NCBI GenBank assembly: GCA_023262855.1
Contig: JALQYQ010000051.1
Span: 1 to 64,000, forward strand
From: Crocinitomicaceae bacterium
GTDB taxonomy: Bacteria > Bacteroidota > Bacteroidia > Flavobacteriales_D > Crocinitomicaceae
DNA length: 64,000 bases
Direction: 5' to 3'
Shown: in pieces, positions 16,276 to 48,918 of the stretch
Numbering within the stretch: position 1 is the first letter of the stretch
Layout: every line of letters begins with the position of its first letter
Position numbers and translations under genes: made by a program
Notes under the pieces: model-generated
What the model saw: only the letters and a program-made list of their open reading frames with translations
Database searches by the model: none
Told to the model about the DNA's origin: nothing

Positions 16276-16485
16276 ACGTGGGCTTCGAGAGCATTTCAAC
16301 AAGTTCAATATATCACCTCAGCCTACGTTTATATTTCTTATCAGCCACGAATTTTACAGTTGACTGAGGTTCTCGAAGGCAACACCCCACTGAAACACTG
16401 ACCGCATATTTAACGTTGACTGAGGTTCTCGAAGGCAACACTTAATGAGGTTCTCGAAGGCAACACTTACTGAGCCCTCGTTGCC
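16272..16485. repeat. REP-like palindrome cluster B
   Basis: A long-form unit at 16272-16330 is bounded by AAACGT/ACGTTT with the core split by an AT-rich insert, like 8397-8437. It is followed by inverted-orientation units CTGAGGTTCTCGAAG flanked by GTTG/CAAC at 16359-16383 and 16415-16439, a partial unit at 16445-16463 and a decayed one to 16485. The spacing is irregular and there are no cas genes. The units lie between the HTH gene and the GIY-YIG nuclease gene. Confidence 0.85.
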
Positions 16486-16487
16486 CA

Positions 16488-16787
16488 CTACTTTATATCT
16501 TTCAAATCGCGATAGGCTTTTGCGAACTCTGGGAGTTGCTCAAGTTTTCCTGAAATCAATGCTTCTTTTTTCTTTCTGCTCCAACCTTGGATTTGTTTTT
16601 CTCGGTTAAATGCATAATCGATTCTTGGATATTCCTCAATATAAACCAATTTAATTGGTGGATGTTTTTTTGTGTGGTTTGCACCTTCCCCGTTTTTGTG
16701 TTCAGTAAAGCGTCTGGGTAAATCAATCGTGCTCCCAGTATAATAACTGCCATCGCCACATTCTAAAATGTAAGTCCAACCTTTCAT
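16488..16787 (-). CDS. GIY-YIG nuclease domain protein (single domain)
   Basis: 99 residues, the UPF0213/YhbQ-like size. Motifs: WTYILECGDGSYYTGST (the GIY...YIG strands with the catalytic Tyr), LPRRFTEHKNGEGANHTKKHPP (catalytic Arg) and NREKQIQGWSRKKKEALI (the metal-binding Glu and basic helix). These enzymes nick or cut DNA with a divalent metal; the family's cellular role is not settled. The gene is enclosed by REP-like clusters B and C, and its two flanks carry opposed palindromes. A second, more diverged GIY-YIG gene at 46410 also sits among palindromes. Confidence 0.85.
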   Translation of the reverse strand: MKGWTYILECGDGSYYTGSTIDLPRRFTEHKNGEGANHTKKHPPIKLVYIEEYPRIDYAFNREKQIQGWSRKKKEALISGKLEQLPEFAKAYRDLKDIK

Positions 16788-16823
16788 AGATAATTAATTG
16801 TAAAAGTTGTATTGAAGATAAGA

Positions 16824-17024
16824 AAAAAATGGGGCTTCGAGAGCCTCAGCCACCATTTTTTCTAAAAATATTATATTCAAATGCAATCGCCTTATAAACA
16901 ATTGTTTATAAACTATTTATTGATTCAGTCACGAATTTATCGTTGACTGAGGTTCACGAAGGCAACTCTTACTGGGGCACTCGAAGACAATGGTGTATCG
17001 TGGGCTGAGGCTCTCGAAGCCCAC
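16824..17024. repeat. REP-like palindrome cluster C
   Basis: Unit 1 (16824-16861) is a hairpin AAAAAATGG ... CCATTTTTT around the core CTTCGAGAGCCTCAG, upstream of the GIY-YIG gene. Unit 2 (16942-16966) is an inverted unit with one change (TTCACGAAG). A decayed copy lies near 16972-16988. Unit 3 (17000-17024) is GTGGGCT ... AGCCCAC around CTGAGGCTCTCGAAG and ends 4 bp from the Sufu-like gene's stop. The tract between units 1 and 2 is AT-rich and shows no gene. Confidence 0.85.
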
Positions 17025-45668: not shown

Positions 45669-46112
45669 ATGGCGACGGTATTTGAAACACGATTAATTGG
45701 TAACATCGGGAAGGACGCTGTTGTGAAAAACATGGAAAGAGGCGTAATTGCCATTAATTTTCCCGTTGCACACAACAAAAACTGGAAGGACAAACGTACA
45801 GGAGAGACTAAAACAAAAACAACTTGGGTAAACTGCACAATCTGGAAAAAAGACGGCGCGAACCTAAGAATCTTAGATTTTTTAAAGAAAGGTGCATTGG
45901 TTGAATTGGAAGGAACGCCTTTTGCGAAAGCCTATGCTCAGGAGGATGGTTTCATTCGCACAGAAATTCGTTTAAATGTTTCAAAAACAAATATTTTACG
46001 TCCTGCCAAATGTGAAGATGGCAATTGTGAAGATTTAGTTGATAGTGATCAATGTGAAGACAGCTTTGATGCTTCAATTGATGATTTCACGTTGGATGAA
46101 GATGATTTTTAA
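45669..46112 (+). CDS. ssb: Single-stranded DNA-binding protein
   Basis: 147 residues from MATVFETRLIGNIGKDAVVKN at the ATG at 45669; the upstream in-frame start at 45639 gives a non-conserved leader. The OB fold is clear (AINFPVAHNKNW, TTWVNCTIWKKDGANL, LKKGALVELEGTPFAKAY, IRTEIRLNVS). The C-terminal region is acidic and ends DFTLDEDDF, the tip that docks repair and replication enzymes. A TTTTTTG/TACATTCA pair upstream, near the TTGACA at 45620, is a plausible promoter. Confidence 0.93.
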   Translation: MATVFETRLIGNIGKDAVVKNMERGVIAINFPVAHNKNWKDKRTGETKTKTTWVNCTIWKKDGANLRILDFLKKGALVELEGTPFAKAYAQEDGFIRTEIRLNVSKTNILRPAKCEDGNCEDLVDSDQCEDSFDASIDDFTLDEDDF

Positions 46113-46192: not shown

Positions 46193-46225
46193 CATTCGCT
46201 TTTCGGAAACGATGGTGAAATTTTT

Positions 46226-46269
46226 TAGCTAAGTTGGTTGAGTCCCGTAACTACGTGATTAATCAGAGG
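46226..46269 (+). pseudogene. Decayed tRNA-Asn copy with palindrome replacement (copy 1)
   Basis: TAGCTAAGTTGGTTGAG matches the D-arm region of the intact tRNA-Asn with two changes, and TTAATCAGAGG (46259-46269) matches the 3' side of its anticodon arm. Between them, where the real tRNA has CATCTGACTG, stands the 16-nt imperfect palindrome TCCCGTAACTACGTGA (46243-46258; 7-bp stem with one mismatch, 2-nt loop). No T-arm or acceptor pairing remains. It cannot be a functional tRNA. Confidence 0.75.
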
Positions 46270-46298
46270 AGCCGAGAAATTTGAAATAAAGGTAATAT

Positions 46299-46372
46299 TC
46301 CTTCTTAGCTCAGTTGGTTAGAGCATCTGACTGTTAATCAGAGGGTCGCTGGTTCGAGCCCAGCAGAAGGAG
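46299..46372 (+). tRNA. tRNA-Asn (GTT)
   Basis: 74 nt. Acceptor stem TCCTTCT/AGAAGGA with discriminator G, D-arm AGCTCAGTTGGTTAGAGC, anticodon arm TCTGA-CTGTTAA-TCAGA with anticodon GTT, and T-arm GCTGG-TTCGAGC-CCAGC. CCA is not encoded. All four stems pair perfectly. Decayed copies lie on both sides. Confidence 0.97.
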
Positions 46373-46380
46373 CAAAAAAA

Positions 46381-46403
46381 TCCCGCAAGTGCGGGATTTT
46401 TTG
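46381..46403 (+). terminator. Hairpin terminator after tRNA-Asn
   Basis: The 16-nt palindrome TCCCGCAAGTGCGGGA (7-bp stem, 2-nt loop, 46381-46396) is followed by TTTTTTG. It is repeated with one mismatch plus the same T-run at 46755-46777 after the decayed copy, so each tRNA copy keeps a matching terminator. The GIY-YIG gene begins just after this hairpin. Confidence 0.85.
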
Positions 46404-46409
46404 TTTTAT

Positions 46410-46718
46410 GTGACCTATTACATTTACATCATTCATTCCAACAGTATCGATAGATATTATGTTGGCTATTCTTCCAATCCTTGGTTGCGTTTAGAGCAAC
46501 ATCTTTCTAATTCCACCGACAAATACACAGGTAAGGCTAAAGATTGGAGGTTAAAAGCAGTTTTCGAGGTGTCAAACAGCGAAGGTGATGCAATTAAAAT
46601 CGAACGTTTTATTAAAAAACAAAAATCACGCAACTTGATTCTAAGGTTATGTGATCCAGGGTTTATTCCTACGGGATCGTTAGCTCAGTTGGTTAGAGTC
46701 CCGCACTTGCGGGATTAA
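46410..46718 (+). CDS. GIY-YIG nuclease encoded between tRNA-Asn and its decayed copy
   Basis: 102 residues from the GTG at 46410; another GTG at 46389 lies inside the terminator hairpin and is unlikely. Motifs: YYIYIIHSNSIDRYYVGYSS (GIY/YIG strands, catalytic Tyr), NPWLRLEQHLSNS (catalytic Arg), GDAIKIERFIKKQKSRNLI (metal-binding Glu, basic helix). The last residues, GSLAQLVRVPHLRD, are translated from the decayed tRNA copy (D-arm and palindrome), and the stop is formed in its TTAATCAG. The gene body is thus flanked by two hairpin terminators and two tRNA segments. Probably a DNA-nicking enzyme that moves or maintains this unit; the mobile role is inference. Confidence 0.8.
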   Translation: MTYYIYIIHSNSIDRYYVGYSSNPWLRLEQHLSNSTDKYTGKAKDWRLKAVFEVSNSEGDAIKIERFIKKQKSRNLILRLCDPGFIPTGSLAQLVRVPHLRD

Positions 46719-46777
46719 TCAGAGGGTTACCGTACGAACGGTATTCGAGCCCAGTCCCACACTTGCGGGATTTTTTG
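46681..46777 (+). pseudogene. Decayed tRNA-Asn copy with three 16-nt palindromes (copy 3)
   Basis: Segments identical to the intact tRNA (TAGCTCAGTTGGTTAGAG 46681-46698; TTAATCAGAGGGT 46715-46727; TTCGAGCCCAG 46744-46754) alternate with 16-nt palindromes: TCCCGCACTTGCGGGA (46699-46714) in place of CATCTGACTG, TACCGTACGAACGGTA (46728-46743) in place of CGCTGG, and TCCCACACTTGCGGGA (46755-46770) plus T6, in place of the 3' acceptor strand and spacer. The retained parts have no substitutions, so the rearrangement is recent or the copy is kept similar by conversion. Confidence 0.85.
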
Positions 46778-47034
46778 TTTTTTACTGCTCGCAATCCTGT
46801 TTGGACTAGTTGCGACCTTTCGTTCAACATATTTCTCTCGGCTTCTGTTAAACCTATAGTTAAATGTCTTTTCTCATTTATAACAGTATTTTCGGTAGAT
46901 TTACTTCTTAAAAATAGGCGTTTTTATGGTAGAATTATCTTATTTATTACCTATAGTATTTTAGCAAATTGAATAGACAAAACCATGCATCGATGGTTTC
47001 ACTTTTTTACCTTTAACGCACTAATCGTAGTGCT
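46778..47034. other. Intergenic region without a supported gene
   Basis: About 260 bases of AT-rich sequence between the decayed tRNA copy and the acyl-CoA synthetase gene. A plus-strand frame (46763-46972) starts inside the hairpin and has no family features. A minus-strand frame through 46935-46690 without a start codon reads like protein (LTEAERNMLNERSQLVQTGL) and continues into the tRNA copy. A TACCTTTA at ~47007 may be the -7 box of the downstream gene. Confidence 0.5.
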
Positions 47035-48918
47035 ATGAAAACATATCAAAAAGTCTATCAGGAAAGCATCGAACAACCTGCTTTATTTTGGGCAAAACAA
47101 GCAGAAAAAATCACGTGGTTCAAACAACCACATCAACCGTTCAAACTAAATTCAAATGGAACCGCACATTGGTTCGAAGGAGGAACACTGAATACTTCTT
47201 ACTTGTGCCTAGATGTACATGTGAACAATGGTTTGGGTGATAACATAGCACTGATTTACGATTCACCTGTTACGAATACAATTCGAAAATATTCCTATTC
47301 AGAATTGTTGCACTTGGTTTCAAAATTTGCGGGAGCACTGAAAGAAAAGGGATTAACAAAAGGTGATCGCGTGATTATCTATATGCCGATGGTACCCGAA
47401 GCGACCATTGCCATGTTGGCGTGTGCGCGATTAGGATTGATACATTCCGTTGTGTTTGGTGGATTCGCCGCTCACGAGTTGGCATTACGAATAGATGATG
47501 CCGGAGCAAAAGCAATTATCACGGCTGACTATGGAATTGAAATTCAACGTATCATTCCTTATCACCCCATAATCGAGAAAGGAATTGAAGAATCTACTTT
47601 GAAACCTGAAATTGTGATTTCGTTCAATCGTATGACCGAAGATGTTCCACGCTCCGAACACTTTGAAGATATGCATTCATTATTGCAAGCTGCCAAACCT
47701 GAAAGCTATGTTGAAATGGCTTCGGAAGATCCTTTATACATTCTTTACACTTCTGGAACAACGGGAAAACCGAAAGGAATTGTTCGTGATAACGGCGGAC
47801 ATGCAGTTGCTTTGCGCTATTCGATGGAAGCCGTTTACAATGTGAAGCAAGGTGATGTGTTTTGGGCGGCATCTGACATTGGTTGGGTCGTTGGACATTC
47901 CTACATTGTGTATGCACCATTGATTACAGGAGCAACAACGATTGTCTTTGAAGGAAAACCGATCAAAACTCCAAATGCTGGAACGTTCTGGCGTGTAATA
48001 GACGAACACAAAGTGGATGTTTTCTTCACTGCTCCAACAGCCATTCGTGCGATTCGTAAAGAAGATCCACACAATCAGTTTTACAAACCAGAAATGACAA
48101 AATCTCTGCGTACCCTGTTTCTTGCAGGTGAACGTTGTGATGTTTCAACCTTAGAATACGCCCAAAATTTGTTACAAAAACCAGTTATCGATCATTGGTG
48201 GCAAACAGAAAGTGGCTGGCCGATGCTTGCAAATATGCAAGGGGTTGAACCATTACCGGTAAAACCAGGTTCGGCATCTGTTCCTGTTTCGGGCTACAAC
48301 ATTCAAATCTTACATGACGACGGCACGCGAGCAGAAGCACATGAACAAGGGTTTGTAGCCATAAAATTACCGCTTCCTCCGGGATGTTTACCAACGCTTT
48401 GGCAAAACAATGAACGCTTTGAGGCTGGATACTTATCTCGTTTTCCTGGTTATTATTTCACTGGCGATGGTGGATATATAGATGAAGAAGGCTATGTTTT
48501 TATCACTGGTCGCGTGGACGATGTTATCAATGTTGCAGGACACCGTTTATCGACTGCAGAAATGGAAGAAATCATTGCTGCAATGTCATGTACAGCTGAA
48601 TGTGCTGTAATCGGCGCAGCAGATGAACTAAAAGGTGAAGTTCCGTTAGCTTTTGTTGTGTTGAAGGATACAGAAGTGAGAGATCAAGGAACCATTCGTG
48701 CGGAAATCAAAGACAAAATTCGTACTGAAATTGGTGCGGTTGCTTCTATAAAAACAGTGTTATTTGTGGAACGCCTGCCGAAAACACGTAGTGGGAAAAT
48801 TTTACGAAACATATTAAGAAGCTTAGCAAACAATACGGCTTATGTTGTTCCGGGAACAATAGAAGATGCACTCGTTATCGAAGAAGTAAAACAACTGTTA
48901 GAAATGCGCATGCATTGA
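47035..48918 (+). CDS. prpE: Propionyl-/acyl-CoA synthetase (PrpE-like)
   Basis: 627 residues, AMP-forming acyl-CoA ligase of the acetyl/propionyl class. Motifs: IYMPMVPEATIAMLACARLGLIHSVVFGGF, P-loop LYTSGTTGKPKGIVRDNGG, DIGWVVGHSYIVYAPL, HWWQTESGWPM, YFTGDGGYIDEEGYVFITGRVDDVINVAGHRLSTAEME, and the C-terminal LPKTRSGKILR with the conserved Lys that is acetylated in this family. 'GIVRDNGGH' and 'WWQTESGWPM' favour the propionyl-CoA synthetase branch over acetyl-CoA synthetase. It would activate short-chain acids for entry into central metabolism. No methylcitrate or methylmalonyl genes are adjacent, so the substrate call is moderate. Confidence 0.75.
   Translation: MKTYQKVYQESIEQPALFWAKQAEKITWFKQPHQPFKLNSNGTAHWFEGGTLNTSYLCLDVHVNNGLGDNIALIYDSPVTNTIRKYSYSELLHLVSKFAGALKEKGLTKGDRVIIYMPMVPEATIAMLACARLGLIHSVVFGGFAAHELALRIDDAGAKAIITADYGIEIQRIIPYHPIIEKGIEESTLKPEIVISFNRMTEDVPRSEHFEDMHSLLQAAKPESYVEMASEDPLYILYTSGTTGKPKGIVRDNGGHAVALRYSMEAVYNVKQGDVFWAASDIGWVVGHSYIVYAPLITGATTIVFEGKPIKTPNAGTFWRVIDEHKVDVFFTAPTAIRAIRKEDPHNQFYKPEMTKSLRTLFLAGERCDVSTLEYAQNLLQKPVIDHWWQTESGWPMLANMQGVEPLPVKPGSASVPVSGYNIQILHDDGTRAEAHEQGFVAIKLPLPPGCLPTLWQNNERFEAGYLSRFPGYYFTGDGGYIDEEGYVFITGRVDDVINVAGHRLSTAEMEEIIAAMSCTAECAVIGAADELKGEVPLAFVVLKDTEVRDQGTIRAEIKDKIRTEIGAVASIKTVLFVERLPKTRSGKILRNILRSLANNTAYVVPGTIEDALVIEEVKQLLEMRMH

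Follow-up and report, generated by a model that had tools for sequence, protein, structure and literature searches.

The stretch of DNA analysed here, hereafter the window, comprises 64,000 nucleotides from a Crocinitomicaceae bacterium (assembly GCA_023262855.1, contig JALQYQ010000051.1, positions 1 to 64,000 of the forward strand). At 46225-46770 it holds an intact tRNA-Asn gene between two broken copies of the same tRNA, with a small gene for a GIY-YIG nuclease lying between the intact and the downstream copy. We propose, with moderate confidence, that the locus is one copy, about 380-400 bp long, of a free-standing homing-type nuclease cassette that inserts into tRNA genes and leaves a working copy, and that its family is widespread in Bacteroidota, with clades that go with particular tRNA isotypes. 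The cassette contains a terminator, the small GIY-YIG gene and a partial tRNA copy interrupted by a palindrome, and nothing else recognisable is encoded in it. Insertion at tRNA genes is well supported; that the nuclease drives homing, and what part the palindrome plays in it, we infer.

The tRNA-Asn locus and its nuclease

The sole tRNA predicted by ARAGORN in the window is the intact tRNA-Asn(GTT) at 46299-46373 (+ strand), scored by Rfam at 70.5 bits; by pattern (3 mismatches allowed) it is also the only such gene in the source genome, G000. It is followed by the terminator-like hairpin TCCCGCAAGTGCGGGA (46381-46396) with a T-run, together spanning 46379-46404 (+), and then by the nuclease gene. 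The downstream broken copy (46680-46770, +), which forms the right end of the element as the displaced 3' part of the tRNA, carries three palindromes. The first, TCCCGCACTTGCGGGA (46699-46714), stands for the 5' side and the loop of the anticodon arm, such that the arm bases CATCTGACTGT are swapped for TCCCGCACTTGCGGGAT. The second, TACCGTACGAACGGTA (46728-46743), as read from the sequence, interrupts the variable and T-arm region, and the third, TCCCACACTTGCGGGA (46755-46770), is terminator-like and lies with its T-run (46755-46785, +) at the 3' end of the copy. The upstream broken copy (46225-46269, +) is made up of a D-arm, a palindrome for the 5' side of the anticodon arm and then TTAATCAGAGG, after which a short spacer leads to the intact tRNA; its palindrome, TCCCGTAACTACGTGA (46243-46258), is imperfect, of the TCCCG type, and sits at the same place as the anticodon-arm palindrome of the downstream copy. 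With the downstream segment as a query against its own genome, the upstream copy was matched at 85% (E 6e-7). Exact palindromes of the form TCCCGN6CGGGA number 8 in G000, and at least one occurs in 52 of 60 relatives, with or without the nuclease.

An earlier note on this DNA, made from its letters alone, had described the intact tRNA (ending it at 46372), the two further copies, and TCCC..GGGA hairpins with T-runs after the intact and the downstream copies, the hairpin of the upstream copy lying in its anticodon arm; all of these proved real. Its view of the copies as simply decayed had to be given up, since the anticodon-arm bases are replaced by a palindrome, as in 60 of 79 loci elsewhere; palindromes between tRNA pieces, together with the stem covariation described below, led us to reject plain decay. 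The nuclease gene does follow the first terminator, as it had stated, but does not end before the downstream copy: the last 12 codons of its open reading frame (ORF), LAQLVRVPHLRD, are the D-arm and the palindrome of that copy, and the stop codon is the following TAA.

The gene (46410-46718, +) would encode 102 amino acids (aa). The longest ORF runs from 46389, and alignment with relatives makes the GTG at 46410 the likely start. The GIY-YIG domain (PF01541) scores 49.1 bits against a curated cut-off of 22.6, and the Y, Y, G, R, H and E positions, which we take to be the catalytic ones of GIY-YIG enzymes, are invariant in 21 diverse relatives. An AlphaFold model of the protein has the GIY-YIG fold (pLDDT 90), with HIGLE and Slx1 as its best structural neighbours (Z 8.7-8.0, 98-100 residues aligned; a Z near 8 is modest) and UPF0213 and I-TevI below them (Z 5-6). 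A Foldseek search with the predicted model gave no match at E 0.001 (the best, Slx1, at 0.0011), and a sequence search against solved structures gave none at 1e-3 (the best, UPF0213 proteins, at 0.004 and 0.008). HIGLE and Slx1 work on branched DNA, and an enzyme that reads hairpins or branches would suit the palindromes, a shared fold showing no function by itself. The gene product is probably a DNA-cutting enzyme.

Empty sites and relatives at other tRNA genes

Within the genus, the anticodon arm of tRNA-Asn was found by pattern (3 mismatches) in 20 genomes, once in 19 of them and twice, at two contig ends, in G016; a 21st arm match, in G001, has another anticodon, and 5 of the 26 genus genomes have none. 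Eight of 21 genus loci are empty: the intact tRNA-Asn is followed there by 800 bases or more, and a GIY-YIG match is absent (G006, G025, G023, G022, G007, G014, G011 and G015). Four are filled (G000, G002, G004 and G024), and in two of these the gene is broken, by decay in G024 and by an insertion of about 5.8 kb in G002. The other nine are partial or too short: G010 has a broken copy at a contig end, in G021 there is an upstream copy and the sequence extends 126 bases past the tRNA arm, four are too short and three lack the arm in the stretch. A filled and an empty locus can be compared in G004 and G015, which agree at 98.4% over the tRNA, about 40 bases in front of it and a few beyond it; G004 then has about 300 bp absent from G015 and realigns (bases 423-610), at 88%, to the G015 tRNA and about 107 bp of its right flank. 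The filled allele therefore reads as the empty one plus a unit plus a second tRNA segment, with the reservation that the G015 site is not pristine, because it carries small repeats of the tRNA end.

Some details of these loci may be recorded here. In G002, the closest relative (L148), there is no upstream broken copy at the syntenic position, and a different hairpin (AAGGTCAATCG..TTGGCCTTTT) stands where the window has the family palindrome at 46379-46404, as if palindromes also replaced terminator hairpins. The listed ORFs of at least 150 aa in the G002 insertion (L148, G002:C21:295400-303300) do not look transposase-like by eye; no family search was made. In G007 and G023 (L135 3-1142 (-) and L129 3-1142 (-)) an ORF with the Pfam domains Phage_int_SAM_5 and Arm-DNA-bind_5 lies shortly after the tRNA-Asn, and the same tRNA gene thus seems to be used by integrase elements as well.

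The arrangement recurs at tRNA-Asn in other genomes. A scan of GTDB genome contigs with peptide patterns gave 79 loci, kept of 130 confirmed, a set biased to the arrangement of the window because the patterns include the tail AQLVRVPH. In 60 of the 79 the ORF is followed by the D-arm, the palindrome and TAATCA, and most of the 19 misfits still show the palindrome. An intact tRNA-Asn lies upstream in 58 loci (53 close, 5 further), and 11 of the other 21 are cut by the contig start. The named host orders are Flavobacteriales, Cytophagales, Chitinophagales, Sphingobacteriales, Bacteroidales and, once, Saprospirales; two metagenome bins are otherwise named, Thioalkalivibrio (L100) and Chlorobiota (L106), which may be binning errors. 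The pattern GTTNGAG-TCCCGN6CGGGA-TTAATCA (2 mismatches) was found in 15 of 200 genomes of the host's taxonomic family, and its reversed control in none.

In an alignment of the window with 27 of the 60 matched tails (most repeats of one variant omitted, and L084 omitted for its length), the palindrome covaries as a 7-bp stem. Paired cells amount to 95.4% (88.8 in shuffles), stem cells changed on both sides number 9 against 1.5 in shuffles, and the covariation score is 0.187, compared with 0.062 in shuffles and a maximum of 0.076 on sliding. Two other measures stayed within the range of the shuffles: double-change pairs (73 of 500 as high) and further pair types (398 of 500). In L106, near 2205, one TCCCG palindrome is nested in another, and in L120, near 3258, a CCTGCCTGCCGG stretch lies in the D-loop of a tRNA-Asn copy; it may be that one palindrome can enter another or take its place. 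Units lacking a nuclease precede the intact tRNA in L150 (G036:C2), L155 (G088:C10) and L136 (G021:C54); they are repeats of the 5' part of the tRNA, a palindrome and a leader, spaced about 83 nt apart, with three in G036. No nuclease was found in the short stretch after the tRNA in G088 and G021.

The wider family reaches many tRNA types. Around more distant relatives of the nuclease, a tRNA gene (Ala, Leu, Asp, Arg, Val or Asn) was present in 12 of 18 stretches. A profile, A1, built from 21 relatives, had a match at E 1e-8 in 62 of the 99 Bacteroidota genomes searched, and 100 of at least about 123 clusters, drawn from the top of the ranking, served as the sample of loci (46 genomes, 14 families). 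All 100 have a GIY-YIG domain. A tRNA gene on the same strand lies within 1 kb in 86 and within 100 bp in 70, and at no locus is the nearest tRNA on the opposite strand. The nuclease gene comes after the tRNA in 76 of the 86 adjacent loci and before it in 10; these loci comprise 26 anticodons and 15 isotypes, and 43 of the 46 genomes have at least one such case. For the control UvrC, also a GIY-YIG protein and searched in the same frame, a tRNA was found in 0 of 29 loci (fetched at 3.3-3.5 kb). Because the sample is top-ranked and A1 has tRNA-linked members, the figure of 86% describes the family found by A1 and not all small GIY-YIG genes. In 8 of the 14 loci without a tRNA, fewer than 500 bases precede the first nuclease gene because the contig ends there.

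At 67 of the 86 adjacent loci the same tRNA is also present as pieces beyond its intact gene, against 18 of 430 when tRNAs of another type were used as a control. A piece of the 3' end follows the nuclease ORF at 50 of the 86, and a 5' piece precedes the intact tRNA at 18. Five-prime pieces end at tRNA position 25-30 in 20 of 33 cases (13 at 27-28); among 40 three-prime pieces, taken without Ser and Leu, 15 start at 43-46 and 19 at 56-60. Where two pieces of one tRNA adjoin, the insert between them is palindromic (stem of at least 5) in 25 of 37 junctions, at 20 of 26 loci, compared with 4.1 of 37 for shuffled inserts; 20 of the junctions are in the anticodon arm, and 13 of those are palindromic. 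Identity between the pieces and the intact gene of the locus is 97.5%, with 101 of 138 pieces at 100%, a value that leans high because they were found by similarity.

Palindromes are about 13-fold denser near the nuclease genes (178 in 45.9 kb, 3.9 per kb) than beyond 900 bp (60 in 198.5 kb, 0.30 per kb), with 38 of the near and 4 of the far ones terminator-like; the TCCC..GGGA class alone counts 76 near and 5 far over the same lengths. Among loci with an assigned class, TCCGCC..GGCGGA is found at 4 of 5 Met, TGGCGC..GCGCCA at 3 of 5 Pro, CTCCGA..TCGGAG at 2 of 2 Lys and CCTGCC..GGCAGG at 2 of 4 Arg loci. From the 3' end of the intact tRNA to the displaced 3' end, the unit has a median length of 383 bp (n=48). 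Tandem arrays of 2-8 nuclease genes are present at 20 of the 100 loci, and 24 of 31 spacings between tandem genes fall at 344-429 bp, in agreement with the unit length. At L255 (G272:C34:4988-11766), 8 GIY-YIG genes with TCCGCC..GGCGGA palindromes stand about 365 bp apart, and no tRNA was found within 2 kb of that array. G000 itself has a second family member (L165, G000:C27:21300-23400), about 50 bp after a tRNA-Val(TAC) and with the palindrome TCCCGATGCATAGCAATCGGGA at the 3' end of its ORF.

A tree was built from 101 nuclease domains over 80 columns, with good support for 12 of its 98 inner branches. On it, tRNA isotype requires 31 changes against 62.4 when shuffled, and palindrome class, for the 59 loci that have one, 25 against a shuffled mean of 36.4. 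In 52 of 87 cases, with 8.0 expected, the closest relative in a different host family has the same isotype. This clustering fits target-specific nucleases that cross family borders, or a very old residence with many losses.

Proposed movement of the cassette and competing explanations

In the mechanism that we propose, the nuclease would cut the anticodon arm or a different arm, acting either on the tRNA gene itself or on a hairpin that the gene forms. The break would then be repaired from a copy that bears the cassette, by way of the tRNA homology on either side, and the cassette would thereby be copied in. The outcome is seen by comparison: an intact tRNA on one side and the displaced part of the tRNA on the other, the displaced copy often with a palindrome at the break point. 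That palindrome could be the cognate site of the nuclease, could make the displaced copy uncuttable and non-functional, or both. The tandem arrays would have arisen by recombination between tRNA repeats. The earlier note had suspected a small mobile unit with tRNA genes as its target, able to regenerate a tRNA end. It had proposed looking for empty sites in relatives and for GIY-YIG genes near tRNAs followed by a tRNA-like segment; the results of both comparisons support it, with movement itself still a proposal. Beyond what the note described are the palindrome in place of the anticodon arm, the range of tRNA types, the arrays of nuclease genes and the nuclease clades specific to an isotype.

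Several findings weigh against this reading. The presumed target is still there in the intact tRNA next to the cassette. According to PMC13096335, free-standing GIY-YIG enzymes typically cut the donor allele inefficiently, and by analogy this is a possible explanation of how the intact tRNA escapes. Searches of phages and plasmids gave one weak match each, so that the cassette is left with no known vehicle, and its being phage or plasmid cargo was rejected on the same result. A second piece of the same tRNA is absent from 19 of the 86 tRNA-adjacent loci; no palindrome lies near the gene at 16 of the 100 loci, and 9 more have only terminator-like ones. Of the 37 junctions, 11 have lost no tRNA base, and the insert is palindromic in only 4 of these. 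In 24 of 54 comparisons the 45 bases beyond the displaced end nearly repeat (at least 0.80) those beyond the intact tRNA, which counts here because simple tandem duplication would give the same; the likeness is 0.62 or less in 27. The T-stem differs between copies in 11 of 34 tRNA-Asn comparisons and agrees in 23. A mosaic of donor and host in the 3' half of the tRNA was therefore rejected as a general rule, clear mosaics (L064, L098) being few and several others being palindrome damage. Host family, too, clusters on the 101-domain tree (44 changes against 59.6 shuffled), and on a tree of the tRNA-Asn clade (71 of the 79 loci and 4 further rows) host order, known for 57 of the 75 rows, takes 15 changes on those 57, with a shuffled mean of 29.4 and a least possible number of 5. 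Transfer between orders is thus occasional, and much of the inheritance is vertical. The loci of one genome are, moreover, not independent, and A1 was built partly on tRNA-linked members.

The explanation that competes best with homing into tRNA genes, though we hold it rather unlikely, is a palindrome-nuclease system of the kind described for Ssn of Neisseria, which is reportedly a site-specific single-strand GIY-YIG nuclease with palindromic NTS repeats in hundreds of copies. The enzyme would recognise and cut its own palindrome in single-stranded DNA, for example during natural transformation, and tRNA copies would merely be the places where the palindromes and the gene are kept, with no tRNA homing. 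The crowding of palindromes near the genes, above all of the TCCC..GGGA class, and the clustering of palindrome classes on the nuclease tree speak for it, as does another GIY-YIG gene of the window, away from tRNAs and likewise ringed by a repeat of its own. Like the cassette, Ssn is a small GIY-YIG protein with a palindrome nearby, and the TCCC..GGGA core resembles the Neisseria repeat. This explanation, however, leaves the same-strand adjacency to tRNAs in 86 of 100 loci and the isotype-specific clades without a cause, and we know of no tRNA link for Ssn. Moreover, G000 has only 8 exact TCCCGN6CGGGA palindromes, against the hundreds of repeats reported for Neisseria, most relatives have at least one regardless of the nuclease, and the 16 loci devoid of a palindrome do not fit.

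We consider it improbable that local tandem duplication alone accounts for the loci, with tRNA repeats and a passenger nuclease gene expanding and contracting by recombination, the copies mutated and the palindromes stray terminator hairpins. The arrays at 20 loci, the close likeness of the bases that follow the two tRNA ends in 24 of 54 comparisons, the host order largely kept in the tRNA-Asn clade and the 38 terminator-like palindromes among the 178 nearby ones agree with it, but it does not account for the palindromes that separate two pieces of one tRNA in 25 of 37 junctions and in several unrelated tRNA types, for the patchy presence within one genus, or for the shared isotype of 52 of the 87 nearest relatives from other host families.

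Hardly credible, finally, is a transcribed palindrome-bearing tRNA copy that acts as an RNA partner and directs the nuclease to the tRNA gene, comparable to transposon-encoded nucleases in which the guide RNA shares sequence with the 3' end of their gene: the ORF does end inside a structured tRNA and palindrome segment whose stem covaries, and the pieces do match the local gene closely (with the upward bias already given), but a DNA palindrome would covary likewise, the broken copies lie upstream in some loci, and we know of no RNA-guided GIY-YIG enzyme. A group I intron was rejected, Rfam giving only the tRNA above its cut-off at the locus, and so was a genome-wide REP-like repeat, in view of the 8 exact palindromes in G000.

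Known systems and further features of the window

By analogy, the nearest described case is SegB of T-even phages, and Ssn comes second. Like the cassette, the Seg enzymes are small free-standing GIY-YIG nucleases among tRNA genes, and the cassette shares two marks of this type, a nuclease gene outside any intron and presence in some but not other alleles of the site. The accessible part of PMC13096335 reports that SegB is associated with a wide range of tRNA isotypes, that peaks of cleavage fall within tRNA genes and that a segment with segB and a tRNA is amplified in tandem, and that of PMC2988022 lists a tRNA intergenic region as the SegB target; the same parts of the two papers describe no palindrome-interrupted tRNA copy. 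The Seg enzymes belong to phage genomes, whereas the cassettes lie in bacterial chromosomes and their clades go with isotypes. The window protein matched no PHROG family at 1e-3 and gave one weak phage match.

REPtrons combine a RAYT transposase (Y1 HUH) with REP palindromes and, like the cassette, have one small nuclease gene flanked by its own palindromes; the cassette differs in its GIY-YIG enzyme, which replaces the Y1 HUH one, and in being bound to tRNA genes. Integrative elements attach at tRNA genes and rebuild the 3' end of the tRNA; insertion in the tRNA gene, the intact tRNA kept and the displaced fragment at the far end are common to them and the cassette. The cassette, in contrast, is about 400 bp long, breaks the tRNA at the anticodon arm or at other points and adds a palindrome, and has no integrase ORF: among ORFs of at least 50 aa, only the GIY-YIG ORF and a 55-aa antisense ORF lie between the tRNA copies. 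PMC9897764, which concerns tRNA fragments at the tRNA sites of integrative elements, does not mention 'nuclease' or 'Bacteroidetes' in its accessible part. With group I introns the cassette shares the invasion of tRNA genes at the anticodon arm. In tRNA genes these introns sit at the anticodon loop; the cassette differs from them in having no intron at the locus, an intact second tRNA copy and no need of splicing. Group I introns in tRNA genes with homing endonucleases are treated in PMC3984707.

In the literature covered, which was partial, we found no report of GIY-YIG genes at bacterial tRNA genes or of a cassette of tRNA and palindrome; the accessible parts of PMC8314537 and PMC9037040 mention GIY-YIG and tRNA in unrelated places, and that of PMC3434094 contains nothing relevant to the cassette. 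There is a fair chance that the cassette deserves a class of its own. More tentatively, and as a possibility that we would not yet call probable, these could be mobile elements of a class that is new in kind: cassettes with a single nuclease and no integrase that home into chromosomal tRNA genes of bacteria, each clade with its own isotype and palindrome, the palindrome in an arm of the sacrificial copy being a recognition or immunity mark that spares one working tRNA, and with most isotypes colonised across Bacteroidota. If so, the tRNA genes of a whole phylum would house a minimal selfish nuclease of one gene, no integrase and about 400 bp, and nature would offer a series of nucleases already matched to their tRNA-gene targets and palindromes. 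The tRNA fragments and the protein tails of the type 'AQLVRVPHVRD' in Bacteroidota genomes would be accounted for, and it would become testable how an element lives inside an essential tRNA gene without killing its host.

The locus is bordered by ssb (named by eye), which ends at 46112, and by an acetyl-CoA-synthetase-type gene (Pfam AMP-binding, ACAS_N) that starts at 47035. The other GIY-YIG gene of the window, at 16566-16784 (- strand), is a different one and is not near a tRNA. Within 16350-17020 it is ringed by the repeat CTTCGAGANCCTCAG, with 4 copies inside about 225 bp; this repeat has 13 exact copies in the genome, and its reversed pattern none. The two are perhaps a further pair of nuclease and repeat.

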